This document shows positions 1-58,213 of a stretch of 64,000 nucleotides of DNA, in pieces. This DNA comes from Bacteroidota bacterium. GTDB lineage: Bacteria; Bacteroidota; Bacteroidia; Chitinophagales; Saprospiraceae. Every line of letters starts with the position of its first letter. Positions within the stretch are counted from its first letter, which is position 1. The notes beneath the pieces were generated by a model, which saw only the letters and a list, made by a program, of their open reading frames with translations, was not told the origin of the DNA and did not search any database. The stretch lies in contig JASBVF010000025.1 of NCBI GenBank assembly GCA_030147525.1, forward strand, positions 1 through 64,000, written 5' to 3'. Position numbers and translations under genes: made by a program.

Positions 1-166
1 TGGCACCCGGCGACTCTTTTAAGGCATCGCCGGAGGCTCTTTGCTATGATACAAGCCGCTACACTGGCACCCGGCGACTCTTTTAAGGCATCGCAGGAGG
101 CTCTTTGCTATGATACAAGCCGCTACACTGGCACCCGGCGACTCTTTCAAGGCATCGCCGGGTATG
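1..166. repeat. 64-bp tandem repeat, about 2.6 copies
   Basis: A 64-bp unit beginning TGGCACCCGGCGACTC starts at 1, 65 and 129. The first two copies differ at one base (CGCC/CGCA near position 31 of the unit); the third follows the unit for about 35 bases and then diverges. The array may continue left of the window. Open reading frames across it are by-products of the repeat length and are not supported as genes. Confidence 0.9.
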
Positions 167-296
167 ATAACCCGGCCTACCGGAAGCGAAGGAAGTTTGC
201 ACCAGTCCATTTCACCTTAAAGAGGGTAAGACTGCAAAATTTTAAACAGTCCCGGCTTACGAAAACCCGGCATTAAACAATTGAAAATCAGTCTGT

Positions 297-1204: not shown

Positions 1205-1464
1205 TGATGGTTGGATGGTTGGATGGTTTGATGGTTTGATTGTTTGATGGTTAAAGGGGCGTCGCATTATTTCATCCAGAGATTCTCACGCTCTTCCCGA
1301 TGTGGCTTCCCTTTAATTCTTGTCCCGAATTCACTCGGGAGGATGGGGGGCTGCATACCTGCGAGCTTCCCCGTGTGGTTCCCCTTTAGGGGTCAGGGGC
1401 GTACGCTCCCAGAAAAACAATCAAACAATCCAGCCATCCAACCATCAAACAATCCAGCCATCTA
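1205..1464. repeat. Inverted word arrays in the glycosyltransferase/mqnE divergent spacer
   Basis: Positions 1205-1256 repeat the word TGGTTGGA/TGGTTTGA; positions 1418-1464 carry the complementary words CCATCCAAC and CATCAAACAATC. The two arms can pair around about 160 nt. The middle holds GTTCCCCTTTAGGGGTCAGG (near 1380-1399), which recurs inverted near 55436-55456. No gene is supported in this 330-bp spacer. Confidence 0.75.
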
Positions 1465-1504
1465 AAATTACCTTTCAAATAAAACTGAAAGTTTAGATTA
1501 CTGT

Positions 1505-1512
1505 TACCTTTA
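1505..1512 (+). promoter_or_regulatory. Bacteroidota -7 box upstream of mqnE
   Basis: TACCTTTA lies 22 nt before the mqnE ATG and matches the TAnnTTTG consensus except at the last base. A -33 element is not clear. Confidence 0.5.
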
Positions 1513-1534
1513 CGCCCGCAAAAATGCAAAATAG

Positions 1535-2731
1535 ATGATCAGTAACGAAAAAATCGAATTCCTGCTGCAAGATCCGGCGTTGAAACCGGAATTGCGCAGC
1601 ATCGCAGAGAAAGTTTTTAACCAGGAACGCATCACGCCGGACGAGGGGATTTTACTCTACCGGGAAGGCGAGTTGGGGTTCGTGGCTTCTCTCGCCAATC
1701 ACATCCGGGAGCGGATGCACGGCGACGATACTTTTTTTAACCGCAACTTCCACATCGAGCCCACGAATGTCTGCGTGTACGATTGCAAGTTTTGCTCCTA
1801 CTCCCGCCTGATCAAAAAACGGGGCGAGGGCTGGGAGTACACGCTGGAAGACATGATGGACATCGTGAAGAAGTACGACGGACAGCCGGTGACGGAGGTC
1901 CACATCGTGGGAGGTGTGCTGCCGCAATACGACTTGCAGTTTTATGCCGAGTTTTTTCAAAAAATAAAAGCGCACCGGCCCGACCTTCACGTGAAGGCGC
2001 TGACGCCAGTGGAGTACCATTATATTTTCAAAAAAGCCAAGGTCAGCTACGCCGAAGGCATGAAGATCATGAAAGAGGCCGGGCTGGATTCCATGCCGGG
2101 CGGCGGCGCTGAGATTTTTCACCCGGACATTCGACTGCAGATCGCTGCGGATAAATGCACCGGCGATCAGTGGCTGCAAATCCATGAGGAGTGGCACAAG
2201 CTCGGCGGACGTTCCAACGCCACCATGCTCTACGGTCACGTGGAAGGCTACGAGCACCGCATCCATCACCTGGAGGAGCTGCGCAAGTTGCAGGACCGGA
2301 CGGGCGGATTCCAGACGTTCATCCCGCTGAAGTTCCGCAACCAGGACAACCAGATGTCGCACCTGCCCGAAGTGAATGTGATCGAAGACCTGCGGAATTA
2401 CGCCATCAGCCGTATCTACCTCGACAATTTCAGCCACGTAAAGGCTTACTGGCCGATGATCAGCCGGAACATTGCGCAGCTGTCGCTGTCCTGCGGCGTG
2501 GATGATATCGACGGTACCATCGATGATACTACCAAGATTTATTCCATGGCCGGCTCCGAGGAGCAAAACCCGGCCATGAGCACCCGGGAACTGGTGAACC
2601 TGATCCGCCAGGTAGGCCGGCGCCCCATCGAACGGGACACGCTCTACAACGTTATCAAAGATTATACGGACGAGGTGTTCGAAGAAGATACGCAGTTCAA
2701 GGGCTACGTTGCCCTGCCTGTCGTTAATTGA
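1535..2731 (+). CDS. mqnE: Aminofutalosine synthase (radical SAM)
   Basis: A 398-residue radical SAM enzyme that joins 3-[(1-carboxyvinyl)oxy]benzoate, the product of MqnA, to SAM to give aminofutalosine in the alternative menaquinone pathway. The 4Fe-4S motif CxxxCxxC is at C80, C84 and C87 (NVCVYDCKFCSYS). SMPGGGAEIF at 186-195 and the later NATMLYGHVEGYEHR and GGFQTFIPLKF segments are MqnE-like; MqnC proteins differ here. Length matches the family. It is followed by mqnA after an 84-nt spacer that can fold into a hairpin, and a -7-like box lies 22 nt upstream. The substrate of one gene is the product of the other, so the pair is functionally coherent. mqnB/mqnC/mqnD are not in the window. 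Confidence 0.95.
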   Translation: MISNEKIEFLLQDPALKPELRSIAEKVFNQERITPDEGILLYREGELGFVASLANHIRERMHGDDTFFNRNFHIEPTNVCVYDCKFCSYSRLIKKRGEGWEYTLEDMMDIVKKYDGQPVTEVHIVGGVLPQYDLQFYAEFFQKIKAHRPDLHVKALTPVEYHYIFKKAKVSYAEGMKIMKEAGLDSMPGGGAEIFHPDIRLQIAADKCTGDQWLQIHEEWHKLGGRSNATMLYGHVEGYEHRIHHLEELRKLQDRTGGFQTFIPLKFRNQDNQMSHLPEVNVIEDLRNYAISRIYLDNFSHVKAYWPMISRNIAQLSLSCGVDDIDGTIDDTTKIYSMAGSEEQNPAMSTRELVNLIRQVGRRPIERDTLYNVIKDYTDEVFEEDTQFKGYVALPVVN

Positions 2732-2815
2732 GGATTGGAGGATTGAGGGATTGGAGGATTGAAGGCTTTTGCCCACCTCCAATCCTTCAATCCTCCCATC
2801 CTCCAATCCTTTCAA
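2728..2815. repeat. Intra-operon word-repeat hairpin between mqnE and mqnA
   Basis: The words GATTGGAG/GATTGAGG on the left arm are mirrored by CTCCAATCC/TTCAATCC on the right arm with a TTTTGCCC loop. The structure begins at the mqnE stop codon and ends immediately before the mqnA ATG, so it could affect mRNA processing or mqnA translation. Confidence 0.8.
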
Positions 2816-3589
2816 ATGAAGCTAAAAGTCACTGCTGTCAGCTATTTGAATACGAAGCCGTTTTTGTACGGCATTTTCAAAAGCGGCCTTGCTGAGGAGA
2901 TAGATTTACAATTGGACATACCTTCCGAGTGCGCCCGGAAGCTTTCAACCGGCGAAGCGGACATGGGACTGGTACCCGTGGCTGTCATTCCTGAAATGCA
3001 GACGCCGCATATCATTTCCGATTACTGCATCGGCACGGAGGGCACGGTGAAAACGGTTTGCGTTTTCAGCGAAAGGCCGATCGAAGAACTGACGCATCTT
3101 TACCTCGATTACCACTCCCGCACTTCCGTGGAGCTGGTTAAAGTTTTACTGAAAAAACACTGGCGCCTCTCCCCTGCCCTGTTGCCGGCAAGGCCGGGTT
3201 TTGAGGATAAAATCAGCGGCACGACCGGCGCCCTCATCATCGGCGACCGGGCTATCGGGCTGGAAGGTCGCTACCCTTTCGTTTACGATCTCGGCGAAGC
3301 CTGGATGGAATATTCGGGGCTGCCGTTCGTATTCGCTGCCTGGGTCAGCAACCGGCAGCTGCCGGAGGAATTTATCGCCCGCTTCAACCAGGCCCTGCAA
3401 TCGGGCATCGACCTGATACCGCAGTTGATGTTCCTGCTGCCCTCGCCGCAGCCGGGCTTCGATCTGTCGAAATATTTCACCGAAAACATCAGCTACCGCC
3501 TCGACGCCGGCAAGCGCAAGGCGCTGAAAATGTTCCTGCAATCGCTTACTCAGGCCCGGCAGCCGGCATTTGAGGCTGTGGGGCTGTAG
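2816..3589 (+). CDS. mqnA: Chorismate dehydratase
   Basis: A 257-residue MqnA: removes water from chorismate to give 3-enolpyruvyl-benzoate, the first step of the futalosine menaquinone route. The N-terminus has the characteristic SYLNTKPF at residues 9-16, and the protein has the periplasmic-binding-protein-like two-lobe sequence of the family (MGLVPVAVIPEM, SRTSVELVKVLL, LIIGDRA, DLGEAWMEYSGLPFVFAAWV). The ATG at 2816 is preferred because the 19 residues before it come from the word-repeat spacer. Same strand as mqnE, probably co-transcribed. Confidence 0.95.
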   Translation: MKLKVTAVSYLNTKPFLYGIFKSGLAEEIDLQLDIPSECARKLSTGEADMGLVPVAVIPEMQTPHIISDYCIGTEGTVKTVCVFSERPIEELTHLYLDYHSRTSVELVKVLLKKHWRLSPALLPARPGFEDKISGTTGALIIGDRAIGLEGRYPFVYDLGEAWMEYSGLPFVFAAWVSNRQLPEEFIARFNQALQSGIDLIPQLMFLLPSPQPGFDLSKYFTENISYRLDAGKRKALKMFLQSLTQARQPAFEAVGL

Positions 3590-3610
3590 CCTCCGGCAAT
3601 GAATATTTCC

Positions 3611-3618
3611 TACATTTG
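3611..3618 (+). promoter_or_regulatory. -7 box of surE
   Basis: TACATTTG, a full match to TAnnTTTG, is 18 nt before the surE ATG. It implies that surE has its own promoter despite being only 47 nt behind mqnA. Confidence 0.6.
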
Positions 3619-3636
3619 CCCCTTCAATTATCCTTC

Positions 3637-4431
3637 ATGAAGCACAGACCATTAATCTTAGTTACCAACGACGACGGCATCAACGCCCCCGGCCTGAAGG
3701 CGCTGGTAGAAGTAGCCCGTGAACTGGGCGACGTCATCGTTGTCGCTCCGGACTCCCCGCAGTCGGGACAGGGGCATGCCATCACGCTGAAAGATCCGCT
3801 CCGTTTAAAAAAAGTGAAACTCTTCGAAGGCCTGGAAGCCTGGGAGTGCAGCGGCACGCCCGTGGATTGTGTGAAACTCGGCAAGCATATCGTGCTGCAT
3901 CAGCGGGAAGCCGATCTTTGTGTGTCCGGCATCAACCATGGCTCGAATGCTTCCATCAATATCCTGTACTCCGGCACCATGTCGGCGGCCATGGAAGCTT
4001 CCCTGGAAGGTATCAACTCCATCGGTTTTTCCCTGCTCGATTACTCCTGGGATGCCGACTTCGAACAGGCCAAGCCTTTCATCCGGCAGATCATGGAACA
4101 TGTGCTGGAACACGGCATTCAGCACTCCCGGCTGCTCAATGTGAACATTCCCAACCTGCCCACCGAAGAAATCAAAGGCATCAGGATTTGCCGGCAGGCC
4201 GAAGCCCGCTGGATCGAGCGCTACGTGGAATCCATCGATCCCCGTGGCCAGAAATACTACTGGCTCACCGGCGATTTCATGAACCAGGACCACGACGAAG
4301 ACACCGACGTCTGGGCGCTGGAAAACGGCTACCTCTCCGTCGTCCCTTCCGGCCACGACCTGACGAGCTACAAAGCCATCGCCCCGCTGAAATCCCTGGA
4401 AAAAACGTTATTAACGATGAACGATGAATGA
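3637..4431 (+). CDS. surE: 5'/3'-nucleotidase SurE
   Basis: A 264-residue SurE phosphatase, which hydrolyses nucleoside monophosphates and is linked to stationary-phase survival. The metal site is visible: VTNDDG with D12 and D13 at the N-terminus, the serine in PDSPQSGQGHAIT, and SGINHGSN supplying the further metal-binding Asn. The family signature NILYSGTMSAAMEA follows. The start at 3637 was chosen because it begins the conserved strand (MKHRPLILVTNDDG). The stop lies inside the left arm of a word-repeat hairpin. Confidence 0.95.
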   Translation: MKHRPLILVTNDDGINAPGLKALVEVARELGDVIVVAPDSPQSGQGHAITLKDPLRLKKVKLFEGLEAWECSGTPVDCVKLGKHIVLHQREADLCVSGINHGSNASINILYSGTMSAAMEASLEGINSIGFSLLDYSWDADFEQAKPFIRQIMEHVLEHGIQHSRLLNVNIPNLPTEEIKGIRICRQAEARWIERYVESIDPRGQKYYWLTGDFMNQDHDEDTDVWALENGYLSVVPSGHDLTSYKAIAPLKSLEKTLLTMNDE

Positions 4432-4487
4432 TAAATGATGAACGGTAGCAACGTTCATCATTCATCGTTCATCATTCATCATTACCC
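4414..4487. repeat. AACGATGA/TTCATCAT hairpin after surE
   Basis: Words AACGATGA, ATGATAA and ATGATGAACG on the left are matched by CGTTCATCATTCATC on the right around GTAGCAA. The near-perfect stem probably terminates or stabilises the surE transcript; there is no clear T-run. Confidence 0.75.
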
Positions 4488-4495
4488 TCATTCGT

Positions 4496-4792
4496 TTGGA
4501 AAAGAATTCAATCATACTCGGCCTTTTGATAGGATTATTGCTGCCCGCTCTGGGCTATGCCCTTTTCTTTGGAATATTTGAAGGCCTGGACGCCCTGGGC
4601 TGGATGAGTTCCAAAGGTTTCCGTCCCATGTTCCGGGAACGGACGTGCGGGGTACTCGCCATTGCGCTTTGTGCTTTCGCCCTCAATTTTTACCAGAAAA
4701 GATACCTCCACGACACCGTCAGAGGGCTGGTAGTCATGATCACGTTGTGGGTCGTCGTGTGGATCGTTTTATTCGGGAAGTATATCTTTTAA
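4496..4792 (+). CDS. Small three-helix membrane protein
   Basis: A 98-residue protein with three hydrophobic segments: roughly 6-26 (ILGLLIGLLLPALGYALFFG), 52-63 (GVLAIALCAFAL) and 77-98 (GLVVMITLWVVVWIVLFGKYIF), separated by short basic loops. It starts with TTG at 4496, directly after the surE hairpin; the next in-frame ATG would remove the first helix. I do not recognise a named family. It lies convergent to the tryptophan dioxygenase gene, with a large inverted repeat between them. Expected in the inner membrane; function unknown. Confidence 0.7.
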   Translation: MEKNSIILGLLIGLLLPALGYALFFGIFEGLDALGWMSSKGFRPMFRERTCGVLAIALCAFALNFYQKRYLHDTVRGLVVMITLWVVVWIVLFGKYIF

Positions 4793-4809
4793 AATAATGC
4801 AAAGACTGT

Positions 4810-4890
4810 CTCCCGCAGATTTCGCAGATTGCCGCAGATTTTAGCATTTCACAAAAAAAGATCTGCGGCAATCTGCGAAATCTGCGGGAG
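4810..4890. terminator. Perfect 30-bp inverted repeat between convergent genes
   Basis: The arm 4810-4839 (CTCCCGCAGATTTCGC...) is perfectly complementary to 4861-4890 (...GCGAAATCTGCGGGAG) around a 21-nt A-rich loop. Each arm is built from repeated CGCAGAT words. It lies between a plus-strand gene ending at 4792 and a minus-strand gene ending at 4979, so it most likely acts as a bidirectional terminator. Confidence 0.8.
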
Positions 4891-4892
4891 CC

Positions 4893-4978
4893 CCCCTCCA
4901 ATCCTCCAATCCCTCAATCCCTCAATCCTTCAATCCTCCAATCCTCCAATCCTCCAATCCTTCAATCCCTCAATCCTT
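4893..4978. repeat. CCTCCAATC / CCTTCAATC direct array
   Basis: About ten direct copies of a 7-9 nt word (CCTCCAATC, CCCTCAATC, CTTCAATC) fill the space up to the stop codon of the tryptophan dioxygenase gene. The same words occur at 2728-2815 in mirrored form. Confidence 0.85.
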
Positions 4979-6022
4979 CTAAAAACCCAGCTTCGCCTCC
5001 AGTGCAGCCGGGATGGCCGGCAAGTTTTGCCGTTCGATCAAAAAGCTCGTCAAAGCAGCTATCTCCTTGAAAATATAGTGTTTATCCAACGCCCCTTTGA
5101 GGTATTCCTTACCCGAAGAACCGCCCGTACCCGTGCGGGTACCGATCATGCGGTGCACCATGTTCATGTGGCGATAACGCCAGGTAGAAAGTTGCTCGTC
5201 GATTTCGAGGAGGTAGTTGAGCAGTTGAAACGGCAATTGCAGCATCGGGTAACCCCGGTAGAGTTTGATGAAAAGCGCAGCCCGGCAGGCTTTCGGGCTG
5301 AGGCGCCGTTCGGCGTCCGGGTTTTCAGGGAAAAACGTTTCATCAAAAAAGCGGATGTTATGGCGCTCGTTGGGCATGAGGCTGTTCAGGTAAGTCATCC
5401 GGTAATCCTGCCAGAAAGGATGCAGGTCGACGTTGGCCTGCGGGTAATTCGAGTGGTAGTTTTGCCAGTTTTCCTTTTCATCAAAAAACGGCATGCGCTC
5501 CAGCCAGGTATTCACGAGATCGAGCAGCGAAGGTTTCTGCTCCGAGTTTTTGATCAGTTCCACATGCTCCGGCCGCAGTTGCGACAGGTAATACTGCTGG
5601 GCGTGCCGCTCAGAGTAACGCAGGCCAAGGCGAGCTTCCGCAATTTTAAACTGCCAGCTCTGAAAGCCTGAGGCCGGCCGCAGGAAGTTCCTGAAATCCA
5701 GAAAATCCATAGGCGTCATGGTTTCCATGATATCAATCTGATGCACGGCCACCCGCAGGATGGTCGCAATGCGGTTCATGCGGTGTACGATGGTTTGCAG
5801 GTCAGGCGAATTGTCGTTGATCACCTGCTTGCTCATGATATCGCCGATGGATTCGATTTCAAATAAAATCTGCTTGAACCACAACTCATACGCCTGGTGA
5901 ATGATGACGAACAACATCTCGTCGTGGGCATGGGCGCCCCTCAGGTCGCTCTCCAGCTGTTGTGCGCCGAGAATTTTATCGAGTTGAAGGTAATCGGAAT
6001 AGTGAACTTCTTTGGTCTGCAT
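4979..6022 (-). CDS. kynA: Tryptophan 2,3-dioxygenase
   Basis: A 347-residue haem enzyme that opens L-tryptophan to N-formylkynurenine, the first step of the kynurenine path. The substrate-site segment IIHQAYELWFKQ places His42 where the family has its conserved active-site His; the haem-ligand His is H290 in MNMVHRMIGTRTGTGG, which also holds the conserved TRTGTGGSSG loop. Length is somewhat longer than the ~280-residue proteobacterial enzymes, with an insertion in the middle (about 165-215). No other kynurenine gene is nearby, so it may feed NAD or catabolic steps encoded elsewhere. It is divergent from lpxB. Confidence 0.95.
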   Translation of the reverse strand: MQTKEVHYSDYLQLDKILGAQQLESDLRGAHAHDEMLFVIIHQAYELWFKQILFEIESIGDIMSKQVINDNSPDLQTIVHRMNRIATILRVAVHQIDIMETMTPMDFLDFRNFLRPASGFQSWQFKIAEARLGLRYSERHAQQYYLSQLRPEHVELIKNSEQKPSLLDLVNTWLERMPFFDEKENWQNYHSNYPQANVDLHPFWQDYRMTYLNSLMPNERHNIRFFDETFFPENPDAERRLSPKACRAALFIKLYRGYPMLQLPFQLLNYLLEIDEQLSTWRYRHMNMVHRMIGTRTGTGGSSGKEYLKGALDKHYIFKEIAALTSFLIERQNLPAIPAALEAKLGF

Positions 6023-6147
6023 GAAAACTTGGTTTTACTTTGGCAAAAATTTCAGGGCCGAAAGTACGGCTTTGCCCCTCAAAATCCATCATCCATGCTG
6101 AAACATCCGTCAAAATCCTCCATCGCACAACTGAAAACCAGTCGTTT

Positions 6148-7275
6148 ATGAAATATTACATTATCGCCGGTGAAGCCTCCGGCGACTTGCACGGCTCCAA
6201 CCTCGTCAAAGCTCTGCGTGCGGAAGACCCCGCCGCCGAAGTGCGCTGCTGGGGAGGCGACCTGATGGCTGCCGCCGGCGCCGAGGTGGTGAAACACTAC
6301 CGTGAACTGGCCTTCATGGGATTTGTGGAGGTGGTGAAAAACCTGTCTACCATCCGCCGGAACTTTCGGACATGCAAGAGCGACATCCTTAGCTTCCGGC
6401 CCGATGCCCTGATTCTCATCGACTATCCCGGCTTCAACCTTCGCATGGTGAAATGGGCCAGACAGCAGGGTCTTCGGGTATTTTACTACATCAGTCCGCA
6501 GCTGTGGGCCTGGCACAGCAGCCGGGTCAAAATCATCCGGGATGCCGTGGAGCGCATGTACGTGATTCTGCCATTTGAAAAGGAATTTTATGAAAAACAC
6601 GGCGTGGAGGTGGAGTACGCAGGCCACCCCCTGCTCGATGTGGTGGATACGCAACCTGCCCGGCCCGATTTTTTTCAAAAAAACAACCTGACGGAAGGCA
6701 AACCCATCATCGCCCTGCTGCCCGGCAGCCGCCGACAGGAGATCCGGGGCATGCTGTCCGTCATGGCTGCTTTGGCGCCCGGTTTTCCCGGCTATCAGTT
6801 CGTGGTGGCGGGAGCCCCTTCCATGGATACTGCCTTTTACCAGGAGGTGCTGCCGGCTGCCGGTGATCTGAAAATCGTGGAAAACCAAACCTATGCCCTG
6901 CTCCGGCATGCCACCGCTGCACTCGTTACCTCCGGCACGGCTACCCTCGAAACTGCGCTGTTCAGGGTTCCGCAGGTCGTTTGTTACCGAGGCGGGCGGA
7001 TATCTTACTGGCTGGCTAAATGGCTGGTCAGCAAAGAGTTGAAATTCATTTCACTGGTCAACCTGATTATTGGCAGGGAATTGGTCAGAGAGCTGATCCA
7101 GGAGAACCTGACCGTGGAAAACCTCCGGTTCGAACTGTCTAACATTCTCACCGAAGCTAACCGGCAAAATATCCTGAACGGTTACGATGAGCTCCGGCAA
7201 AAGCTGGGCGAAGCAGGCGCTTCCGGGAGGGTCGCACGGTCGATGGTGAGGTTGTTGAACAGGGAGGAGGAATGA
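6148..7275 (+). CDS. lpxB: Lipid-A-disaccharide synthase
   Basis: A 375-residue GT19 family enzyme; condenses UDP-2,3-diacylglucosamine with lipid X to make lipid A disaccharide at the inner membrane. Family signatures are clear: IIAGEASGDLHGSNLV at the N-terminus, IDYPGFNLR, YYISPQLWAW, the LLPGSRRQEI nucleotide-site loop and TSGTATLETAL near the C-terminal lobe. The ATG at 6148 begins the conserved first strand; the longer upstream reading includes non-conserved residues. It shows the organism makes lipid A. Followed after 50 nt by a lipoprotein gene. Confidence 0.95.
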   Translation: MKYYIIAGEASGDLHGSNLVKALRAEDPAAEVRCWGGDLMAAAGAEVVKHYRELAFMGFVEVVKNLSTIRRNFRTCKSDILSFRPDALILIDYPGFNLRMVKWARQQGLRVFYYISPQLWAWHSSRVKIIRDAVERMYVILPFEKEFYEKHGVEVEYAGHPLLDVVDTQPARPDFFQKNNLTEGKPIIALLPGSRRQEIRGMLSVMAALAPGFPGYQFVVAGAPSMDTAFYQEVLPAAGDLKIVENQTYALLRHATAALVTSGTATLETALFRVPQVVCYRGGRISYWLAKWLVSKELKFISLVNLIIGRELVRELIQENLTVENLRFELSNILTEANRQNILNGYDELRQKLGEAGASGRVARSMVRLLNREEE

Positions 7276-7325
7276 GGGATGAGAGATTTCAAACAGTCAT
7301 TTAATCATCATTAAAATACCCTTTT

Positions 7326-7976
7326 ATGAATCTGAAAACTTTCTTTTATCTGGCCGCTGTGCTTGCTGTGGGCCTTTCTTTCTCCAATTGCGCTTCGCTG
7401 ACCGGCTACCAGACTGCCCGCACGGTTGGTGAAGGCAACGGCGAATTGATCGCTTCGCTGAATGTTTCACAAACGCCGGAATTTGACTTCGACAACAACG
7501 ACACGACGGACGTGGAGAATTTTTTCTTCCCAAACATTGAGGTAAGCGGACGCTACGGGGTCATCGAAAAGCTGGACATCGGTCTTCGTTTGAATACGAA
7601 CTTCAACGTGGCATTGGATGCCAAATACCAGTTCATCGGCGACCGTGAATCGCCTGTGGCAGTAGCGGCCGGTTTTGGCGTAGGCACCTTCGGACTGGTG
7701 GCGGCGCTCTGGAATGTACAGATTCCGCTGTTTTTCTCCTTCCACCCTTCGGAGAAAGTGGACATTTACATTGCCCCCAGGTATATTGCCCAATTCGCTG
7801 CCGGGGATTTCACCGGCTCCCTGAATTATTTCGGCGGAAATGCGGGGATCATGTTCGGCAAACGAACGAAGTTCGGCTTTGATGCGGGCATCTACAACAT
7901 CAGTGCCGCCCGGCAGGATGTGTTGCCCATCGCCACCTTCGGCTTCGGCGTGAAAATACCGTTTGGGAATAATTAA
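7326..7976 (+). CDS. Outer-membrane beta-barrel-like lipoprotein
   Basis: A 216-residue protein with a lipoprotein signal (MNLKTFFYLAAVLAVGLSFSNC, predicted lipidated Cys22). The rest is made of alternating amphipathic strands with aromatic ends (VSGRYGVIEKLDIGLRLNTNFNVALDAKYQFIG, FFSFHPSEKVDIYIAPRY) and ends FGFGVKIPFGNN, as in small eight-strand-like barrels of Bacteroidota. No enzymatic motif. Downstream of lpxB on the same strand. Probable envelope structural role; family not recognised by name. Confidence 0.75.
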   Translation: MNLKTFFYLAAVLAVGLSFSNCASLTGYQTARTVGEGNGELIASLNVSQTPEFDFDNNDTTDVENFFFPNIEVSGRYGVIEKLDIGLRLNTNFNVALDAKYQFIGDRESPVAVAAGFGVGTFGLVAALWNVQIPLFFSFHPSEKVDIYIAPRYIAQFAAGDFTGSLNYFGGNAGIMFGKRTKFGFDAGIYNISAARQDVLPIATFGFGVKIPFGNN

Positions 7977-8056
7977 TGGTTAATTGTTAATGAGTAATGG
8001 TTAATGGTTAATGGCGTGCGCACCATTAACCATTACTCATTAACCATTAAAAATTA
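7977..8056. repeat. TTAATGGT / ACCATTAA hairpin between convergent genes
   Basis: Words TTAATGGT, TTAATGAG and TTAATGGC on the left are mirrored by CACCATTAACCATTACTCATTAACC on the right around GCGTGCG. It sits exactly between a plus-strand stop (7976) and a minus-strand stop (8060), consistent with bidirectional termination. Confidence 0.8.
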
Positions 8057-8059
8057 AAA

Positions 8060-8962
8060 TCAAGGGTTTCTGATCGTGATGTCTCCGAAAGATATTTTGA
8101 TGGAAATGTTGGAGGAGCCGATTTTGGAGGAGAAAATGGCTTTCTTCAGCTGGTCGGTATTTTCGAGGTAGTTGAATTTCAGGTTGTTCGGCACGGAGAT
8201 ATTGCCGTAGTGGGCGGTGAGCGTGTAGCCGTAAAAGTTCGGCTTAGGATCGAAGAAATAGACGTCCGACTTTTCGGCGTCGATGTTCAGGCTGAGCAAT
8301 TCAGGGCTAGGATTGGTAAAAAACTTCAGCACGCCGTATTGCGAATTGATATTCCAGGTGCCTTTGATGTCGTACAGTGTCAGGTCGGAGCGCCGGGAGT
8401 TGATCGTGACGTCGCCGTCGATATCTTTCCCTTCCACATCGCCGAAGCGGGTGCTGATGCCGATCTTTCCCCGCAGATTTTCCAGTCCTATTTTTGAAAA
8501 CTCGCTGTTGATGCGCAGGGCGCTCGTCAGGTTGCTGACGTGGGTGAGGCCGTAGTTGTTTTTAAGATAAACCGGACAATCTTCCGGGAGGATGATGGTG
8601 TAAATTGCTTTGAGGTCGGACACCGGCTTTTTCTTGCCCTGCGGCACATTCACATAGTTGCGGAAGTATAACTTTTTGCCGTGCTGCTCGGAGGTGTAGA
8701 CCATCATTTCGAGGTCGGCCTGGGCCGTTTTTTTATCAGGGTGCTTCGCAATGATTTCCACGACCACCTTCACCTCGTTGCGGCTCCAGGTTTCCACCAG
8801 GATTTCCGCTTTTTCCCCGTCGATGTTCACCTCGTTACCGTTGAGGTAGGGGAAGGTATTTTCCACCGTTTTGGTCACCACCTGAAAAGTGGTTTGTGCG
8901 GCAAGCCCTGAGCAAACGGGCAGGCAAAACAATGGCAATAAAAACTTCAGGATATTTTTCAT
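8060..8962 (-). CDS. Exported DUF4097-like beta-helix protein
   Basis: A 300-residue protein with a signal peptide (MKNILKFLLPLFCLPVCSGLAAQ) followed by repeated short strands such as LRINSEFSKIGLENLRGKIG, TRFGDVEGKDIDGDVTINSRRSDLTLYDIKG and AHYGNISVPNNL. This is the pattern of the DUF4097/putative auto-transporter adhesin beta-solenoid. It is the last gene of a sigma, anti-sigma, exported-protein operon, an arrangement common in Bacteroidota where the exported protein may be an output or sensor of an envelope stress response. The role is inferred from context. Confidence 0.75.
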   Translation of the reverse strand: MKNILKFLLPLFCLPVCSGLAAQTTFQVVTKTVENTFPYLNGNEVNIDGEKAEILVETWSRNEVKVVVEIIAKHPDKKTAQADLEMMVYTSEQHGKKLYFRNYVNVPQGKKKPVSDLKAIYTIILPEDCPVYLKNNYGLTHVSNLTSALRINSEFSKIGLENLRGKIGISTRFGDVEGKDIDGDVTINSRRSDLTLYDIKGTWNINSQYGVLKFFTNPSPELLSLNIDAEKSDVYFFDPKPNFYGYTLTAHYGNISVPNNLKFNYLENTDQLKKAIFSSKIGSSNISIKISFGDITIRNP

Positions 8963-8973
8963 TTCAAATACGG

Positions 8974-9030
8974 ATTTGTGTATTCGGGTGTTTGCGTGTC
9001 TGAAGGCTCAACCAGGCAAATACCCGAACA
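8974..9030. repeat. GTATTCGGGTGTTTG hairpin inside the sigma operon
   Basis: TTTGTGTATTCGGGTGTTTG on the left is mirrored by CAAATACCCGAACACAC on the right. It occupies the spacer between the anti-sigma stop and the exported-protein start. The words resemble those at 22190-22276. Confidence 0.7.
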
Positions 9031-9035
9031 CACCA

Positions 9036-9659
9036 TCAAATCAACATGACCATCATTTTCTTCAAAATGCCGGTTCTTTCCAATTCAATTTCCTTGATTT
9101 GTGTGATCAGTTCAGGGTCGGAGCCAAAGGCGCCGACGGCTTCTTTCAGTTCTTCCTTGGCGGAAGTGAGTTCTTCCAGTTCCTGCTGCATTTGCCGGAA
9201 TTCCGGTTGTTCGCAGATGTATTTTTTTCCTTCGCAAATGGCCAGGTATTCCTGAAACACCTCCTCGTCTTCGTCCCAGTCATGTTCCAGCAGCAGCGGG
9301 TCTACAGTTTCTTCCGAATAACTGATAGTCACGTTATCCGGTTGGATGGTTGAAGTTTTATTCAACTGCCAGTAAGCCACCAGCAACAAAGCCAGTGAAG
9401 CTGCCACTGCCAGCGCCTGTTTCCAGCGCATCGCCACCAATTTGCCCTTCGCCGGTGCGGACAATTGCTGTTCGATGCGATCCCAGACATTGGCCGGCGG
9501 CTCGTATTGCGGCAGCGACTTCAGCAAAGCTGAAGGAATGTGGTCCGCTCGTTCCCCGCTGATTTCGTCCTCAATTTTCATCCAGAGATCATCCGGCGGC
9601 TGATGCTCCTTGAGCGAGGAAAGCGCTTCTACCAATGTTTTTTTGTTATGCTCTTTCAT
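9036..9659 (-). CDS. Membrane-anchored anti-sigma-like protein
   Basis: A 207-residue protein with an acidic cytoplasmic N-terminal part (residues 1-77), one transmembrane helix at about 80-97 (ALAVAASLALLLVAYWQL), and a periplasmic part ending in a coiled coil (FRQMQQELEELTSAKEELKEA) and a hydrophobic tail. It sits 59 nt behind an ECF sigma gene, so it is very likely its anti-sigma partner, but no zinc-anti-sigma HxxxCxxC motif is present. The N-terminal repeats PPDDLWMKIEDE and PPANVWDRIEQQ are a visible internal duplication. Confidence 0.75.
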   Translation of the reverse strand: MKEHNKKTLVEALSSLKEHQPPDDLWMKIEDEISGERADHIPSALLKSLPQYEPPANVWDRIEQQLSAPAKGKLVAMRWKQALAVAASLALLLVAYWQLNKTSTIQPDNVTISYSEETVDPLLLEHDWDEDEEVFQEYLAICEGKKYICEQPEFRQMQQELEELTSAKEELKEAVGAFGSDPELITQIKEIELERTGILKKMMVMLI

Positions 9660-9682
9660 TGCTGTGAATTTTAAAATCCGTT

Positions 9683-9724
9683 CCTCTCACCCTCTCACTC
9701 TCTCACCTTCTCAACCTCTCAAAC
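9683..9724. repeat. CTCTCACC word array
   Basis: Direct copies of CTCTCACC, CTCTCACT, TTCTCAAC and CTCTCAAA run between the sigma stop and anti-sigma start. Unlike most other arrays it has no mirrored arm. Confidence 0.75.
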
Positions 9725-10255
9725 CTCATCCTTCAAAATCTCCCTGAGCCGTTTTTTGGAATAAAACAACTGCGATTTGGAGGTTCCTTCGGAAATGCCG
9801 AGCAGGGCCGCCACTTCTTTATGGCTGTAGCCCTCCACTTCGACGAGGGTGAAAACCGTCCGGTAGCCGTCCGGCAGGGAGAGTATTGCCTTTTCGAGGT
9901 ATTCGGCATCGAGGTAATGGCCCCAATCGACCTGCGCACCGGGCGGCAGGTCATCCACCGATTCGAAAAACTTTTTGTCTTTACGTAAATGGCTGTATGC
10001 TGTTCGCACGACGATGGTCTTAATCCAGGCGCCCAGCGTAGACTCCGCCCGGAAGGACGACAAGCCCCGAAAGACCTTGACAAAAGCATCCTGCAACACA
10101 TCATTGGCTTCCTCGAAATCTCCCGTAATCCGGTAGGCGAGCGTGTACATAGCCTTCTTGTACTTGTCGTACAGTTTTTTCTGTGCCAGTCTGTCTTTTG
10201 CCAAACAGGATTGCACGAGTTCCGCCTCGGTCATGCCAATCTGGTAGTTAGTCAT
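9719..10255 (-). CDS. ECF-type RNA polymerase sigma factor
   Basis: A 178-residue sigma-70 family protein. Region 2 covers about residues 20-90 (LYDKYKKAMYTLAYRITGDFEEANDVLQDAFVKVFRGLSSF) and region 4 about 120-175 (LEKAILSLPDGYRTVFTLVEVEGYSHKEVAALLGISEGTSKSQLFYSKKRLREIL), the helix-turn-helix that reads the -35 element. Regions 1 and 3 are missing, as in ECF factors. It heads an operon with a membrane anti-sigma protein and an exported beta-solenoid protein. A TATTTTTG box lies about 25 nt upstream. Confidence 0.92.
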   Translation of the reverse strand: MTNYQIGMTEAELVQSCLAKDRLAQKKLYDKYKKAMYTLAYRITGDFEEANDVLQDAFVKVFRGLSSFRAESTLGAWIKTIVVRTAYSHLRKDKKFFESVDDLPPGAQVDWGHYLDAEYLEKAILSLPDGYRTVFTLVEVEGYSHKEVAALLGISEGTSKSQLFYSKKRLREILKDEV

Positions 10256-10278
10256 TGATGCAGTTCGATTTCAAGTTA

Positions 10279-10286
10279 CAAAAATA
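10279..10286 (-). promoter_or_regulatory. -7 box of the sigma operon
   Basis: TATTTTTG on the minus strand, matching TAnnTTTG, ends 23 nt before the sigma ATG. Confidence 0.55.
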
Positions 10287-10349
10287 AGGTGCCGGCAAAC
10301 GCTGCCGGGGTTGTACCCCCGCAGCGATGAAGGTAGTTTTTTTAATGAA

Positions 10350-10436
10350 AAAATGGAATGCAGCTACAACACCGCATTCCATTTCGGGATATTGGGACGG
10401 GACACCAATATCTCAATATCCTGATATTCTAATTTC
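10350..10436 (-). terminator. Hairpins downstream of the barrel protein gene
   Basis: The stem TGGAATGC (10354-10361) with GCATTCCA (10374-10381) is followed on the minus strand by TTTTTTCATT, a usable intrinsic terminator. Just upstream, 10388-10430 is another mirrored word pair (GATATTGG with CCAATATC). A third hairpin, CGCTGC..GCAGCG, lies near 10299-10325. Confidence 0.7.
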
Positions 10437-11060
10437 TTAAAACGAGAATCCCGCCGTCAGCACCCATCTGGTGGGAGCGTCGGAGAACTTCACGTCATTG
10501 CCACCGATGCGCATGTGCTCGCCGAACTTGGTAAAGTTTCCTTCGTAGCGGAGATCCACCAGGATTTTCCAGATGTCGAGGCCCACGCCAGCCTGGTAGC
10601 CCATGGTAAAGTCATTGAATCTTTTTTCGTAACCGGAAACTTCATCTTCGATTTCCGATTTGCTGGCCACGTAAACATGACCTACCGGCCCACCTTCCAA
10701 ACGAAGCGGACCGAGCTTGAATCCAAGCATGAGCGGGATGTCGAGGTTGCGGTATTTTTCGCTTAAAACTTTGTCCATCAGGCCGCTCTGAAAGTCAGTG
10801 ACAGCAAAATTAACGGTGGACGAATTCAGCAACAATTCAGGCTGAAGGTATATCCGGTCGGTGAGGGAAGCTCTGGCAAACACGCCAAAGTGGAAGCCGT
10901 AGTCGGCATCCTGGATGGCAATTTTGACGCCGTCAGACTGAACGGATTCTTTATTCAGATTCATGGAACTCAAGCCTGCCCGCAGACCGTAGCGGATTTG
11001 TGCCTCTGAGTTCATCGTAAAAAACAAAAGCGCAATTACTAAAAATGCTAATTTTTTCAT
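10437..11060 (-). CDS. Outer-membrane beta-barrel protein (PorT-like family)
   Basis: A 207-residue protein with signal peptide MKKLAFLVIALLFFTMNSEAQ and a small barrel of the OMP_b-brl_2 type: it begins IRYGLRAGLSSMNL, continues DYGFHFGVFARASLTDRIYLQPELLLNSS, LDIPLMLGFKLGPLRLEGGPVGHV and ends RWVLTAGFSF. This pattern is typical of many Bacteroidota porin-family proteins with no known substrate. It stands alone, with a terminator behind it and engB divergent in front. Confidence 0.85.
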   Translation of the reverse strand: MKKLAFLVIALLFFTMNSEAQIRYGLRAGLSSMNLNKESVQSDGVKIAIQDADYGFHFGVFARASLTDRIYLQPELLLNSSTVNFAVTDFQSGLMDKVLSEKYRNLDIPLMLGFKLGPLRLEGGPVGHVYVASKSEIEDEVSGYEKRFNDFTMGYQAGVGLDIWKILVDLRYEGNFTKFGEHMRIGGNDVKFSDAPTRWVLTAGFSF

Positions 11061-22172: not shown

Positions 22173-22185
22173 GTATGAAATTGAT

Positions 22186-22276
22186 TTATGTGTTTGTGTT
22201 TGTGGGTATTTGTGTGATTGTGAGGTGTCCGGTCATTTCACGACCACCTGCACACTCAAACACCCGAACACTCAAA
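22186..22276. repeat. GTGTTTGTG / CACTCAAACACCCG hairpin
   Basis: Words GTGTTTGTG, GTATTTGTG and GATTGTGAG on the left are mirrored by CACCTGCACACTCAAACACCC and CGAACACTCAAA on the right. It fills the spacer between the TonB receptor stop and the sucC start, both on the minus strand, and might terminate the receptor transcript. Confidence 0.75.
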
Positions 22277-47509: not shown

Positions 47510-47606
47510 GGGAAGTAGGCCGTTAGGCCAGTAAGCAGGTAGGCCAGTAGATGCCGTGGTCAGCCGGGATTCGGGATTCAACATTCATCGTTCATCATTC
47601 ATCGTA
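47510..47606. repeat. AGGCCAGTA and TTCATCG word arrays
   Basis: GTAGGCCGTTAGGCCAGTA-type words run from 47510 to 47550, then CATTCATCGTTCATCATTC words from 47579 to 47606, ending before the cca start. The second set shares its words with 4414-4487. Confidence 0.75.
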
Positions 47607-47612
47607 GCAACC

Positions 47613-51524: not shown

Positions 51525-54500
51525 TCAGAACACAACCAGTTGTGCTGTTCTCATTTCACCATCTTCATAAAGTGAAACAAGGTAAATACCGTTCTTGACC
51601 CGTAGTTGTTCCAGGTCGATACTCACCTGATTCGCTCCTTCTTCCAGTTCCATTTCCAATACCAGTTCGCCAAGTACATTTCTGACCATCAGGTTGGCCG
51701 TTTCCGCATGGCGGGTAAACTGTATCGTCACCTCCCGGTTGGCAGGATTCGGGAACAGGCTAAGTGTAGATTCATCCGCATGTCCGACTGCATGATGACC
51801 ATGGGCCGTTGGCGCTGCCATGCTTTGACCGCTACAGGACTGGCAAGGACCGACCGGATCATTGTGATTGTTGAAGTGGGCCGGCAAGGCATTCTTATTG
51901 ATGCAAAGCGTATTGCTGTTGTGGCAAATGTTAATCTTGTTGTTGGCACATTTCCAATCCTCGCTGTAATCTGCATACGGCAGCAGCTGGCTGCAATCCG
52001 GTATACCGTCGCCAATCGGGTCACCGTTGGTATCGTAGGCGCCAGCTTCATCAACGCTGTCATCGCCGCCGGGGCAGACATCGCAATAGTTGCCCACGCC
52101 GTCGCAGTCGTCGTCGTCATCGGCTACCAGCGGGTCGTTGTCATTCGTGTCGGGGCAGCCGTCGTTGTCGTCATCCGTATCGATGCAGTTAAGCTCGCCG
52201 TCTCCATCCGTATCCACCTCATCGGCAGGGATGATTCCGTCGCAGTCATTGTCCTTGCCGTCGCAAAGTTCCGGTGCTCCGGGATAGACCGTGTCGTCAC
52301 CATCGTTGCAGTCTGTATTATCAGCTACATAACCCTCCGGTTGATCGCAGATAAAACCGCTAACGCTGTTGCCTGGGTCGCCAAAACCGTCATTGTCAGT
52401 ATCAGCGTACCAGGTGGCTTCAAAACCTTCATCCACATCACCATCGCAGTCATTATCCACGCCATCGCAGACTTCCGTTGCATCCGGATTGATGTTAATA
52501 TTGCCATCGTTACAATCTGTATTATCAGCTACATAATCTTCCGGTTGATCGCAGGTGAAACCGCTGATGCTGTTATTCGGGTCGCCAAAACCGTCATTGT
52601 CGTCGTCAGCGTACCAGGTGGTTTCAAAACCCTCGTCGATGCTGCCGTCGCAGTTGTTATCGATGCCATCGCAGATTTCAGTAGCATTGTGAGAAATAGC
52701 CGCATTGAACGGTTCACAATCCGTTGCGTCCGGGTCTCCGTCATTGTCATCATCCGGGTCGCAGACATCGCCGATAAGGTCCCCGTCAAAATCTTCCTGA
52801 TTGGGATTAGGCGTTTCAGGACAGTTATCCGTGATATCGGCAACACCGTCATTGTCCGTGTCGGGCAACAGCGCTACGTCGTTGCCGTCGCCGCCGACAT
52901 ACGTAATGAGGTACGTTTTTCCGTCGATAACCAAAGAGGTGCCTTCCGGCAAACCTTCAAAAGTACCACCAACAGGATCGGTTCCGTCGTTATCGATGAT
53001 CATCAGCACACCTGAAGGCGTGCCGGCAGCGTAAATTTCAAGGAAACTTCTATCAATGATCACCTCGCCAATGACCACGATCAGGTCATGCTCTGTGGGT
53101 GTTGTTTCATATTCCAGAATAGCTTCAGGCTCCAGTTCTAAAATCCCTTCGATGGTCATGGTGCCGGGAGAGTTGCCGGGCGCTATTTTACCACATTTTC
53201 TGATCCTCATCAAGGCAGCCATAAAACCGCTGCCTTTCATCTTGCCCTGACATTCCACGCTCACTGCGACCGGCGGAGAGGCGGGCGTGGGCGGCGTAAG
53301 GCTTTTGCCATCCAGGTTTAATGTTCCCTGTGTTACGGCTATCTCCTTAGCCTCGCTGTTATCGCCCAATTTGACCTCGCCGCCCTGTTTATCCACTTCT
53401 ACCATGGCGCTGCCTTTGGATTTTAAGACCTGGGAATAGTTGCCAAACATTCTGAAGAAACTATTCGTGCTGGGCGTCATCTTTTTCTGCATAGTGAGGT
53501 TGCCTCTTACTGACATCTTCTTCCTGTTTAACCAGCTGGAAAACATGGAGGTTCTGGACTTGACGACTACGTTGTTGTCAACCTGCAGATTATCCTCCAG
53601 GGTGATTTCATCGTCATCCGTCGCATCTACTTCCAGATCGTGCAGTGGAGCTTTACTGTTGACTTTGACCGGACCTTTGAAAATCACCGTTCCCGTTCCC
53701 TTGTTGAAAGAGCTTAACTTCTTGATGGCAAACAATTTACTGACGGCCAGTTTTTTCGCATGGAGTTTTACGACACCATTATAATCAGTGTTGGTCGTTA
53801 AACTTTTGATGTTGACGTCCACGTCACAATTAACTTCGCTGGATGTCGCAGCGTTAAACACAACCTCATCATTAACAGAAGGTACCTGACCACCAGTCCA
53901 GTTGCCGCCGGTACTCCAGTTAGTATTGCCGGTGTTGTTGGTCCAGGTAAGGGTAGGATCTTCGGTGAAAGATTTACTGCTAATACAGACAGTTTGGTTG
54001 TTGGTAGCAGCTCCGGTGGCAGCGGTAAATCCCCAGAATACCATTTTCTCGCCGTTGAAAATGTTGGCGACGATATCATCCGTGTAGTCGATACGAACGA
54101 TACCATCCAGCGTAACCTGCAGCCTTTTGGTGGTTGCATTCCAATCAATGACGACCGGGTGGTCGTTACCGTCTTCGAGGTTGGACAGACCGAAAGGCCC
54201 TTGCAGGTTATTGGACGATGCATGATTGAGCACGCCGTTTTTTACCAGGGCAATATGGTCAGAATACGGGTCATTTAAGTCCACGTTTTGCCAGGTGTCA
54301 AATTCAACGGCAAGGCTGGGTGAGATGTTCTGAAAGCCCAATCCTCCGCCAATAGCGCCAATTCCGTTGCTCACCGGTTGCAGGACAAAGCCTATTCCGT
54401 CAGCGCCGTTAGCGTCAACCGTGCCCAGGTTAACTGTCCCTTCGATATGCATGTTATGGCTAAGGTCAATTTTGCTGATGTACCATATGGCACCGGCTGA

Positions 54501-54755
54501 CGAATTGACGTTTACCTGGGTTAAGCGATAACAATCGTTACCAAAATTCAAAACATTGCCGACTGTTACATATTGCGCCCAGGAGCTAACCGGAGCCAAT
54601 GCAAATCCGGCTATAAAGGCGGCCAGCAGCACGGCCTTCATCTTTCCTTTAAATGACGTTGATTGTTTTGAAAAATGGGTCCGCTCCTGCGCAGACAATG
54701 GATGGTAAGCTCCGGTGTCCTTACTCCGGACAGACGGAAGTAGTTGTTTTTTCAT
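51525..54755 (-). CDS. T9SS-exported lectin-domain protein with calcium repeats
   Basis: A 1,076-residue protein. The N-terminal extension of about 38 residues precedes a normal signal (KMKAVLLAAFIAGFALAPVSSWAQ). A legume-type lectin domain covers about 63-265 (DGIGFVLQP, PSLAVEFDTWQN, NDPYSDHIALVKNG). A beta-rich middle with autotransporter-like repeats follows. Thrombospondin type-3 repeats start at about 632 (DTDNDGVADITDNCP), then two or three MopE/PF11617-type metal-binding repeats (ICDGIDNNCDGSIDEGFETTWYADDDNDGFGDP) at about 690-850. Residues 998-1076 are a type-A T9SS tail (LSLFPNPANREVTI...YLVSLYEDGEMRTAQLVVF). A secreted or cell-surface, carbohydrate-binding, calcium-dependent adhesin is the best guess. 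Confidence 0.9.
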   Translation of the reverse strand: MKKQLLPSVRSKDTGAYHPLSAQERTHFSKQSTSFKGKMKAVLLAAFIAGFALAPVSSWAQYVTVGNVLNFGNDCYRLTQVNVNSSAGAIWYISKIDLSHNMHIEGTVNLGTVDANGADGIGFVLQPVSNGIGAIGGGLGFQNISPSLAVEFDTWQNVDLNDPYSDHIALVKNGVLNHASSNNLQGPFGLSNLEDGNDHPVVIDWNATTKRLQVTLDGIVRIDYTDDIVANIFNGEKMVFWGFTAATGAATNNQTVCISSKSFTEDPTLTWTNNTGNTNWSTGGNWTGGQVPSVNDEVVFNAATSSEVNCDVDVNIKSLTTNTDYNGVVKLHAKKLAVSKLFAIKKLSSFNKGTGTVIFKGPVKVNSKAPLHDLEVDATDDDEITLEDNLQVDNNVVVKSRTSMFSSWLNRKKMSVRGNLTMQKKMTPSTNSFFRMFGNYSQVLKSKGSAMVEVDKQGGEVKLGDNSEAKEIAVTQGTLNLDGKSLTPPTPASPPVAVSVECQGKMKGSGFMAALMRIRKCGKIAPGNSPGTMTIEGILELEPEAILEYETTPTEHDLIVVIGEVIIDRSFLEIYAAGTPSGVLMIIDNDGTDPVGGTFEGLPEGTSLVIDGKTYLITYVGGDGNDVALLPDTDNDGVADITDNCPETPNPNQEDFDGDLIGDVCDPDDDNDGDPDATDCEPFNAAISHNATEICDGIDNNCDGSIDEGFETTWYADDDNDGFGDPNNSISGFTCDQPEDYVADNTDCNDGNININPDATEVCDGVDNDCDGDVDEGFEATWYADTDNDGFGDPGNSVSGFICDQPEGYVADNTDCNDGDDTVYPGAPELCDGKDNDCDGIIPADEVDTDGDGELNCIDTDDDNDGCPDTNDNDPLVADDDDDCDGVGNYCDVCPGGDDSVDEAGAYDTNGDPIGDGIPDCSQLLPYADYSEDWKCANNKINICHNSNTLCINKNALPAHFNNHNDPVGPCQSCSGQSMAAPTAHGHHAVGHADESTLSLFPNPANREVTIQFTRHAETANLMVRNVLGELVLEMELEEGANQVSIDLEQLRVKNGIYLVSLYEDGEMRTAQLVVF

Positions 54756-57744: not shown

Positions 57745-57747
57745 GAA

Positions 57748-57806
57748 ATTGTTGAGATTGTTGAGATTGTTGAGATTGTTGGGATGGTAGAGATTGTTGG
57801 GATGGC
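57748..57806. repeat. GAGATTGTT word array
   Basis: Words TTGAGATTGTTGAGATTG and GTTGGGATGG repeat directly upstream of the EAD-like gene start. Confidence 0.75.
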
Positions 57807-57831
57807 AGATGAGGGTTGAATTGGAAATAAT

Positions 57832-57910
57832 TTCCCGCTAATTTTCGCAAAGTCTCGCTAAGTCATACTTGGCGTGACTTTGCGAAACCTTAGCATAACC
57901 TTTGCGGGAA
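57832..57910. repeat. Hairpin with permuted words
   Basis: TTCCCGCTAATTTTCGCAAA...CTAAGTCA (left) and TGACTTTGCGAAA...CTTTGCGGGAA (right) share complementary ends, but the internal words TTAGCG and TTTGCGAAA are in a different order in the two arms, so they do not pair throughout. Confidence 0.65.
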
Positions 57911-58072
57911 TCTTTCTTTTCAAGCGAAAAGATAATAATAACAGGATGCTTCCCAGCATTATTCACCTGTTAATTGCAGACTTCCTTCTAAATCCACGAT
58001 GGAGCGCAGGCCCTGGCAACCGTGCAGGGCACAGGTTCTGGCAAGCGTTTCATCGGCGCCATGCCCGACTCA

Positions 58073-58131
58073 AACCCATCAAACCCCTCCAACAAATCAA
58101 ACCCCTCAAACCCCTCAAACCCCTCCAACAA
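58073..58131. repeat. AAACCCCTC word array
   Basis: Words CAAACCCCTC, CAAACCC and CTCCAACA repeat directly; no mirrored arm. It lies between the EAD-like and TonB-domain gene regions. Confidence 0.75.
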
Positions 58132-58213
58132 AAAACACCGGATCTTCCATCAGAAAACCCGGCGTTAGTTCAGAAAGAGCAATTACGCCAAAAAGCACCA
58201 TGGAATAACTCTT

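Follow-up and report, generated by a model that had tools for sequence, protein, structure and literature searches.

The window analysed here comprises positions 1-64000 of contig JASBVF010000025.1, which belongs to the 7,084,418-base genome (59 contigs; genome label G000) of a Bacteroidota bacterium of the Saprospiraceae. The genes of its first 10.4 kb, among them mqnE and surE, are mostly separated by spacers that carry strings of one short word repeated with small variation, and in several of these the word returns as its reverse complement and forms a hairpin. These arrays belong to dispersed families found at gene edges, they leave the gene with their G-rich, C-poor strand, and their words change quickly between relatives. 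They look like fast-turning repeats with a strict orientation rather than like transcription terminators.

Arrays were detected by a lag-match scan (score of at least 14). The scan found 15 in the window, with periods of 7-9 nt plus one of 12, against 0 in 10 dinucleotide-preserving shuffles, and the short-word arrays reported in a preliminary description of this sequence are thus real. Shuffle tests were also carried out on each spacer, an array being called at p<=0.01. The preliminary description considered nearly every spacer of the first 10 kb to be built of words. In the first 10.4 kb an array was significant in 7 of 11 spacers, and an array or a hairpin in 9, as spacers 8963-9035 and 10256-10436 have a significant hairpin but no significant array; in 3590-3636 and 6023-6147 neither was significant. 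The later arrays placed at 47510-47606, 57748-57806 and 58073-58131 were upheld within 47510-47612 and 57745-58213. The one placed at 22186-22276 did not survive, spacer 22173-22271 giving p=0.043 at lag 8 and p=0.57 for a hairpin. Mirrored hairpins of 25-40 bp had been claimed for at least seven places, which is too many, since arms of at least 25 nt occur at four sites (2730-2803, 4412-4484, 4810-4890 and 7973-8057). The stretches around these fold far better than shuffles (Table 1), and 10370-10440 (z -0.7) and 47565-47606 (z +1.3) fold no better. A sample of the same genome (1,134,333 bp, 16% of the genome) contained 58 arrays. Spacers hold 41 of these, and among the remaining 17 several overlap gene ends or sequence ends. 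The sample also contained 117 hairpins, of which 112 lie in spacers and 41 have word-periodic arms.

The words had been described as private to each spacer, which they are not. A 23-nt phrase from the 1205-1462 spacer has 31 matches in its own genome (up to 3 mismatches), and the GATGAATGATG string has 57 (up to 2 mismatches, overlapping registers counted); the control, in which the same phrase is read backward, gave 0 for both. Similarly, in four Mucilaginibacter genomes an irregular-unit phrase of 25 nt is matched 25, 7, 55 and 41 times (up to 3 mismatches), and a second phrase is matched 12-37 times per genome in four genomes, again with 0 in the controls. Comparisons among sites that were picked for matching a phrase have no bearing on conservation. 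In a set of 296 Bacteroidota genomes, two words of the window have matches in 26 and 22, spread over several families, with 8 and 4 for the backward control. The words thus belong to families, shared among unlinked junctions and among species. Their distribution is patchy even within the genus of the window's own genome, with 0 spacer arrays in 160 kb of G004 and 10 in 80 kb of G007. Since unlinked junctions have multi-word phrases in common, local slippage alone fails to account for the arrays, as the preliminary description had supposed. Recombination octamers of the Chi type were considered and rejected, 16 words having observed/expected values of 0.75-1.19 in the coding DNA of the genome, with no over-representation.

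The orientation of the arrays was scored relative to genes called with a custom hexamer script and no standard annotator, which sometimes absorbs an array into a gene (as at L035). An array is G-outward when G exceeds C on the strand running from the gene into the spacer. The count excludes arrays with |G-C| below 3, those whose period is not 6-11 nt, and 5 that have a gene edge within 20 nt on either side. Of the arrays that remain within 20 nt of a single edge, 71 of 71 are G-outward, at starts and stops alike. The 71 are partly non-independent, since the Sphingobacteriales loci are centred on the mqnE junction and many of the arrays from them stand there. They comprise all 30 from the window's own genome, 27 from other Saprospirales-type genomes and 14 from Sphingobacteriales and others, or, by spacer class, 49 co-directional, 13 convergent and 9 divergent. 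Their unit is 7 or 8 nt in 64 and 9-11 nt in 7, so that most words are of 7 or 8 nt. The outward strand has 5-6% C and 30-34% G. Farther from the edge the preference fades, with outward and inward arrays at 6:2 between 21 and 60 nt and 7:5 beyond 60 nt. Among sites selected by phrase match and not by polarity, 80 of 83 within 20 nt are G-outward, and at the three exceptions the opposite edge is only 13-21 nt off.

At starts a selective cause of this rule is plausible, namely the avoidance of G and of NTG codons in the leader. No sense NTG codon occurs in 32 of 40 start-side arrays, and 36 of the 40 would have at least three if reversed. In array-free spacers upstream of starts the outward G/(G+C) is already 0.59-0.65 in the first 20 nt, G being scarce in the leader. 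Of 12 period-7 arrays that lie at least 30 nt inside called genes, 9 are C-rich in sense; since a C-rich array may stay open as a reading frame, the polarity at stops could partly reflect how the edge is defined. Two C-rich 7-nt arrays were also seen in one called open reading frame (ORF) of 4131 nt at G000:C10 ~204024 and ~204849 (184024 and 184849 of the joined stretch), and are either intragenic arrays or the result of a fusion in gene calling. The tRNA genes, as translation-free edges, offered no comparison, no array lying within 60 nt of 13 tRNAs. Most of the listed words have no GGG and do not reach four G-tracts of at least three Gs (judged by eye, not scored by a program), and quadruplexes are therefore unlikely as a general cause of the rule.

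The word hairpins follow from the same arrangement, because the two edges of a spacer usually bear one family, outward on both sides. The G arm precedes the C arm in 64 of 68 word hairpins in spacers, against 94 to 85 with 32 ties in other hairpins. Plain hairpins of the window's own genome taken alone also lean from G arm to C arm (47:22, 7 ties), and the plain convergent hairpins of the Sphingobacteriales sample lean the opposite way (4:14, 4 ties). By spacer class, word hairpins lie in 20 of the 288 convergent spacers, 42 of the 1370 co-directional ones and 6 of the 404 divergent ones. A run of at least four Ts follows 2 of 42 word-hairpin ends in co-directional and 4 of 40 in convergent spacers; among the other hairpins the figures are 37 of 121 and 63 of 150, respectively. 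Mispairs in the word stems, read in sense, are 25 G-U versus 57 A-C in co-directional and 20 versus 15 in convergent spacers. Lacking T-tracts and an excess of G-U, these hairpins are unlike classical terminators, and we find nothing in them that would point to intrinsic termination or to RNA pairing being selected. Arms of one junction were also compared with arms of the same family elsewhere, and permutation gave p=0.027, 0.86 and 0.20 for three families (15, 14 and 9 junctions); any extra likeness between the two arms of a junction is thus slight at most, and the mirroring of words on the spot that had been proposed is weakly supported, in one family of the three.

Between relatives the fillings turn over rapidly. 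The spacer upstream of one particular gene is filled differently in each of four sister Mucilaginibacter genomes (protein identity to the query 100, 98, 96 and 95%); one of the four fillings resembles another on its left side and carries a different family on its right. After a second gene GTCATTG words are found in three of these genomes, and the fourth, with 89% identity, has GTTCATTG words; one extra orthologue query, matched in 1 of the 4 genomes, was excluded. The 3' junction of mqnE, at 80 named loci and in the window, takes forms from a gene overlap or a gap of a few bases up to hairpins in twelve word classes, which were assigned by eye and include near variants of one another; ten rows with a word label failed the automatic array test (L046, L053, L064, L065, L084, L090, L100, L101, L103 and L109). 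On an MqnE tree of these 81 rows, made by a quick method, there are at least 25 changes of class and at least 14 of presence. Of the 28 rows that passed the array test 23 end in TAG, as do 10 of the 53 others. A unit step is visible between L090 and L103, the latter being one 7-nt unit short. Word arrays stand at the mqnE 3' end in many Saprospiraceae and Mucilaginibacter, though the next gene differs by group, and the nearest MqnE relatives of the window among the named loci are mostly metagenome-assembled genomes of Saprospiraceae. In Mucilaginibacter a motif near ACAGCGCAGCGAAATGAC is interleaved with GTCATTG words in the mqnE spacer of L090, L103 and L105, and also at L275, L280 and L295. 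The spacer after surE, a word hairpin in the window, is 34 bp without an array in L007 and a hairpin of different words in L013. The surE frame itself terminates within the word array (4410-4442), and as relatives align only to residue ~263-267 of 271, the array provides its final residues and stop. The preliminary description had held that neutral slippage would be the better explanation if related genomes kept neither position nor word and orientation showed no bias. The outcome is mixed: sister species frequently differ in the word, yet in many cases the position has been filled anew, and near gene edges the bias in orientation is complete in our counts.

Table 1. Word arrays and hairpins of the window, with the gene edges that they adjoin
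Feature	Start	End	Strand	Context	Test
8-nt array (GCCTACTC on +)	299	341	-	overlaps stop of minus-strand gene 317-1204; G-rich strand leaves gene	
8-nt array GATGGTTG	1206	1252	+	divergent spacer, 2 nt upstream of start of minus-strand gene 317-1204	
8-nt array, reverse complement of 1206-1252 word family	1415	1462	-	upstream of mqnE	
word hairpin GAGGATTG ... CAATCCTC	2730	2803		between co-directional genes; begins at stop codon	z -7.6 (surrounding stretch)
word hairpin AACGATG ... TTCATCA	4412	4484		after surE; surE stop codon inside first arm	z -8.2 (surrounding stretch)
hairpin of CGCAGATT words	4810	4890		between convergent genes; G and C mixed, scored as polarity exception	z -13.1 (surrounding stretch)
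8-nt array CCTCCAAT, longest	4895	4979	-	reaches stop of minus-strand gene 4979-6022; G-rich strand leaves gene	
short weak 7-nt array (AGGGATG)	7276	7325	+	in spacer	p=0.003
word hairpin TTAATGG ... CCATTAA	7973	8057		fills convergent spacer	z -8.6 (surrounding stretch)
imperfect hairpin, GTGTTTG-like words, 21-nt arms	8963	9035		in spacer	array p=0.06, hairpin p=0.000; z -5.5 for 8970-9038
8-nt array CCTCTCAC	9683	9722	-	at stop of minus-strand gene 9719-10255	
spacer with weak hairpin	10256	10436		10370-10440 folds no better than shuffles	p=0.007
7-nt array CGGGATT then CATTCATC	47565	47603	+	two sides with different words, no hairpin	
9-nt array TGAGATTGT	57744	57803	+	immediately upstream of start of minus-strand gene 55627-57744	
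short hairpin, 21-nt arms	57843	57887		same spacer as 57744-57803 array	
9-nt array CTCAAACCC	58070	58129	-	85 nt downstream of stop of minus-strand gene 58214-58855	

The arrays fit the long simple sequence repeats (units of 5-11 nt) and the heptamer type, being tandem units beyond chance that are mostly intergenic. The excerpts of PMC4679880 and PMC4692102 name Mrazek et al. 2007 as the source for heptamers being the commonest long unit, and that of PMC2700814 mentions heptanucleotide elements in Geobacter. The closest likeness is to the GGGAATC and GGGGA(C/T)T repeats of Xanthomonas and Nostoc PCC 7120 (Rehm et al. 2015, PMC4692102). According to the parts of that article available, these too are 7-nt arrays, mainly intergenic and sometimes running over stop codons, they lie 0-50 bp from ORFs with the same preference as here (non-coding strand upstream, coding strand downstream), and they vary in length and sequence among relatives; inverted pairs number 70 and 75 in two Xanthomonas genomes and are also found here. 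The same parts describe a single quadruplex-forming word family per organism, whereas here there are many words, of 7, 8 and 10 nt and mostly without G-tracts, and few inverted pairs in Nostoc, unlike here. In six Nostoc plasmid stretches (290 kb) 8 arrays point outward and 9 inward, which shows no rule, and none of the stretches has a word hairpin. Work by Elhai and others in 2008 reportedly dealt with very small mobile repeats in cyanobacteria. The cyanobacterial short tandemly repeated repetitive (STRR) sequences, in the portion of PMC2670836 at hand, are 7-nt repeats able to form intergenic hairpins as the arrays do here, for example between hupS and hupL. The TAACTGA direct repeats of Beggiatoaceae, present also in five Bacteroidetes (MacGregor 2015, PMC4679880), are likewise intergenic heptamers, patchy and strain-specific, but from the extracts of that paper they consist of one word, with 169 direct sets against one indirect repeat, mainly upstream of starts. 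Among the literature matches listed there was no account of such arrays in Saprospiraceae or Mucilaginibacter.

We tentatively favour, at somewhat less than even confidence, an explanation in which these long simple sequence repeats, with a unit of 7-8 nt, form dispersed families sited at gene edges. New junctions would receive strings copied from other junctions, probably through recombination or template switching between arrays; the arrays would later change by unit steps, and the content of a junction would quickly be replaced. The orientation surviving near genes would be the one with the C-poor, G-rich strand outward. At starts this orientation would exclude G and extra start codons from the leader, and at stops it may travel along when units are copied whole. 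The hairpin would be mainly a by-product of the same family pointing outward at both edges of the spacer. The families, their place at gene edges, their orientation, their turnover and the lack of terminator marks are observed, while how the strings are copied and why they are oriented in this way, most of all at stop codons, is inferred.

Several observations weigh against this explanation. No copying event was caught and no donor traced, and between the masked cores of 57 array spacers of the window's own genome the 18 matches are read as leftover words, so that movement of whole units is not demonstrated in this genome. In the window's own genome the arms of one family are somewhat more alike within junctions than by chance, as given above, and after a third gene, found in 3 of the 4 Mucilaginibacter genomes at the limit used, GTCATTG is kept in 3 of 3. 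The polarity at stops is without a sufficient cause, especially in convergent spacers, which have no start codon and obey the rule in 13 of 13. Array-free spacers show no skew at stops (G/(G+C) 0.48-0.54 in the first 20 nt). The supply of stop codons is ruled out as the full cause, as 7 of 31 stop-side arrays contribute no stop whatever the frame, and 16 of 31 would contribute one in reverse. Whole-unit copying, an edge effect of the reading frame and a process at DNA ends are candidates. As the rule is identical at starts, stops and convergent junctions, a DNA-end process fits better than one at the level of the transcript. By analogy with telomere repeats, whose 5' to 3' direction is towards an end, an end-extending or end-copying activity of a new kind might write C-poor words away from the gene at its edges, working on 3' strands where the spacer is broken and taking its words from other junctions; a filled spacer would then be two outward caps. 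We regard such an activity as improbable.

Other explanations start from the hairpin. The preliminary description suggested a selected class of terminators, and bidirectional terminators or 3'-end stabilisers, that is, selected RNA structures between genes, would agree with the strong predicted folds and with the share of convergent, co-directional and divergent spacers that word hairpins occupy. T-runs are however scarce in them, the co-directional stems have fewer G-U than A-C mispairs, Rfam gave no match in the window, many of these hairpins lie within likely operons and sister species carry different words, and we give this idea little credence. A structural role of another kind would be that the spacer folds away, its stem placing the stop codon beside the next start and keeping the gene pair translationally coupled. 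Array-bearing mqnE junctions do often run from the stop codon to the next ATG, array-free ones being often tight, and a coupling role has been proposed for the repeat hairpins of cyanobacteria in the available part of PMC2670836. The convergent and divergent spacers with word hairpins have nothing to couple, and the co-directional stems are without the G-U excess, which makes this role a slim prospect as well.

Of a mutational rather than a functional nature is the proposal that local slippage builds an array and intrastrand template switching (quasi-palindrome correction), a known mutational process, copies it to the other arm. One family does occupy both arms in most hairpins, and the arms are slightly more alike than chance in one family, but not in the two others. 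Phrases are moreover common to unlinked junctions, and the families differ between the two sides at L333 and in 47510-47612 and 57745-58213 of the window; we consider the proposal unlikely. Spacer 57745-58213 has differing 9-nt words at its sides, each G-outward, with an unrelated short hairpin in between. The inverted pairs flanking a core also recall REPINs, miniature mobile elements which an IS200-type (Y1_Tnp) transposase would move. In the sections of Bertels and Rainey 2011 (PMC3116915) available, REPINs with RAYT transposases are dispersed inverted pairs forming extragenic hairpins, as here, but have a conserved short palindrome beside their own transposase gene, no clear counterpart of which was found for the word arrays. 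Y1_Tnp above 80 bits was found in eight of 14 genomes (G000, G007, G027, G031, G036, G060, G061 and G064), which include every word-rich one, with no such match in G004, G019, G029, G038, G043 and G055. Against this, a word-like array occurs in 3 of 20 stretches around Y1_Tnp matches (in the window's own genome it lies ~180 nt from the best match), and hairpins of other sequence occur in 9; there are also many word families per genome. Mobility by RAYT thus finds no support in the flanks of these matches, though full-length Y1_Tnp accompanies array-rich genomes, and we hold it to be very improbable.

Some further repeats were noticed. At the very start of the window (1-180), 2.5 copies of a 64-bp tandem repeat (1-158) lead into the compact palindrome GCCGGGTATGATAACCCGGC (157-176), which may be of the repetitive extragenic palindromic (REP) type because similar palindromes stand near a weak Y1_Tnp match of the same genome (L323). 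In a Mucilaginibacter genome (L311, 1398-1509 and 2020-2048) the compact palindrome ATAGCGATGGGTTT/AAACCCATCGCTAT flanks a Y1_Tnp gene and is likely its own REP. A 204-bp tandem repeat (1.9 copies, 82% matches) lies at 52300-52687 of the window, within the large ORF 51525-54755.

A preference for running outward from genes was known for one quadruplex-forming heptamer family, and is found here for many unrelated words of Bacteroidota, mostly without G-tracts. Any annotated genome can serve to test the rule, which sharpens a vague old question, that of the purpose of heptamer arrays, into why the C-poor strand exits the gene at both ends. The fast turnover, moreover, cautions against taking such hairpins as conserved terminators or regulators.

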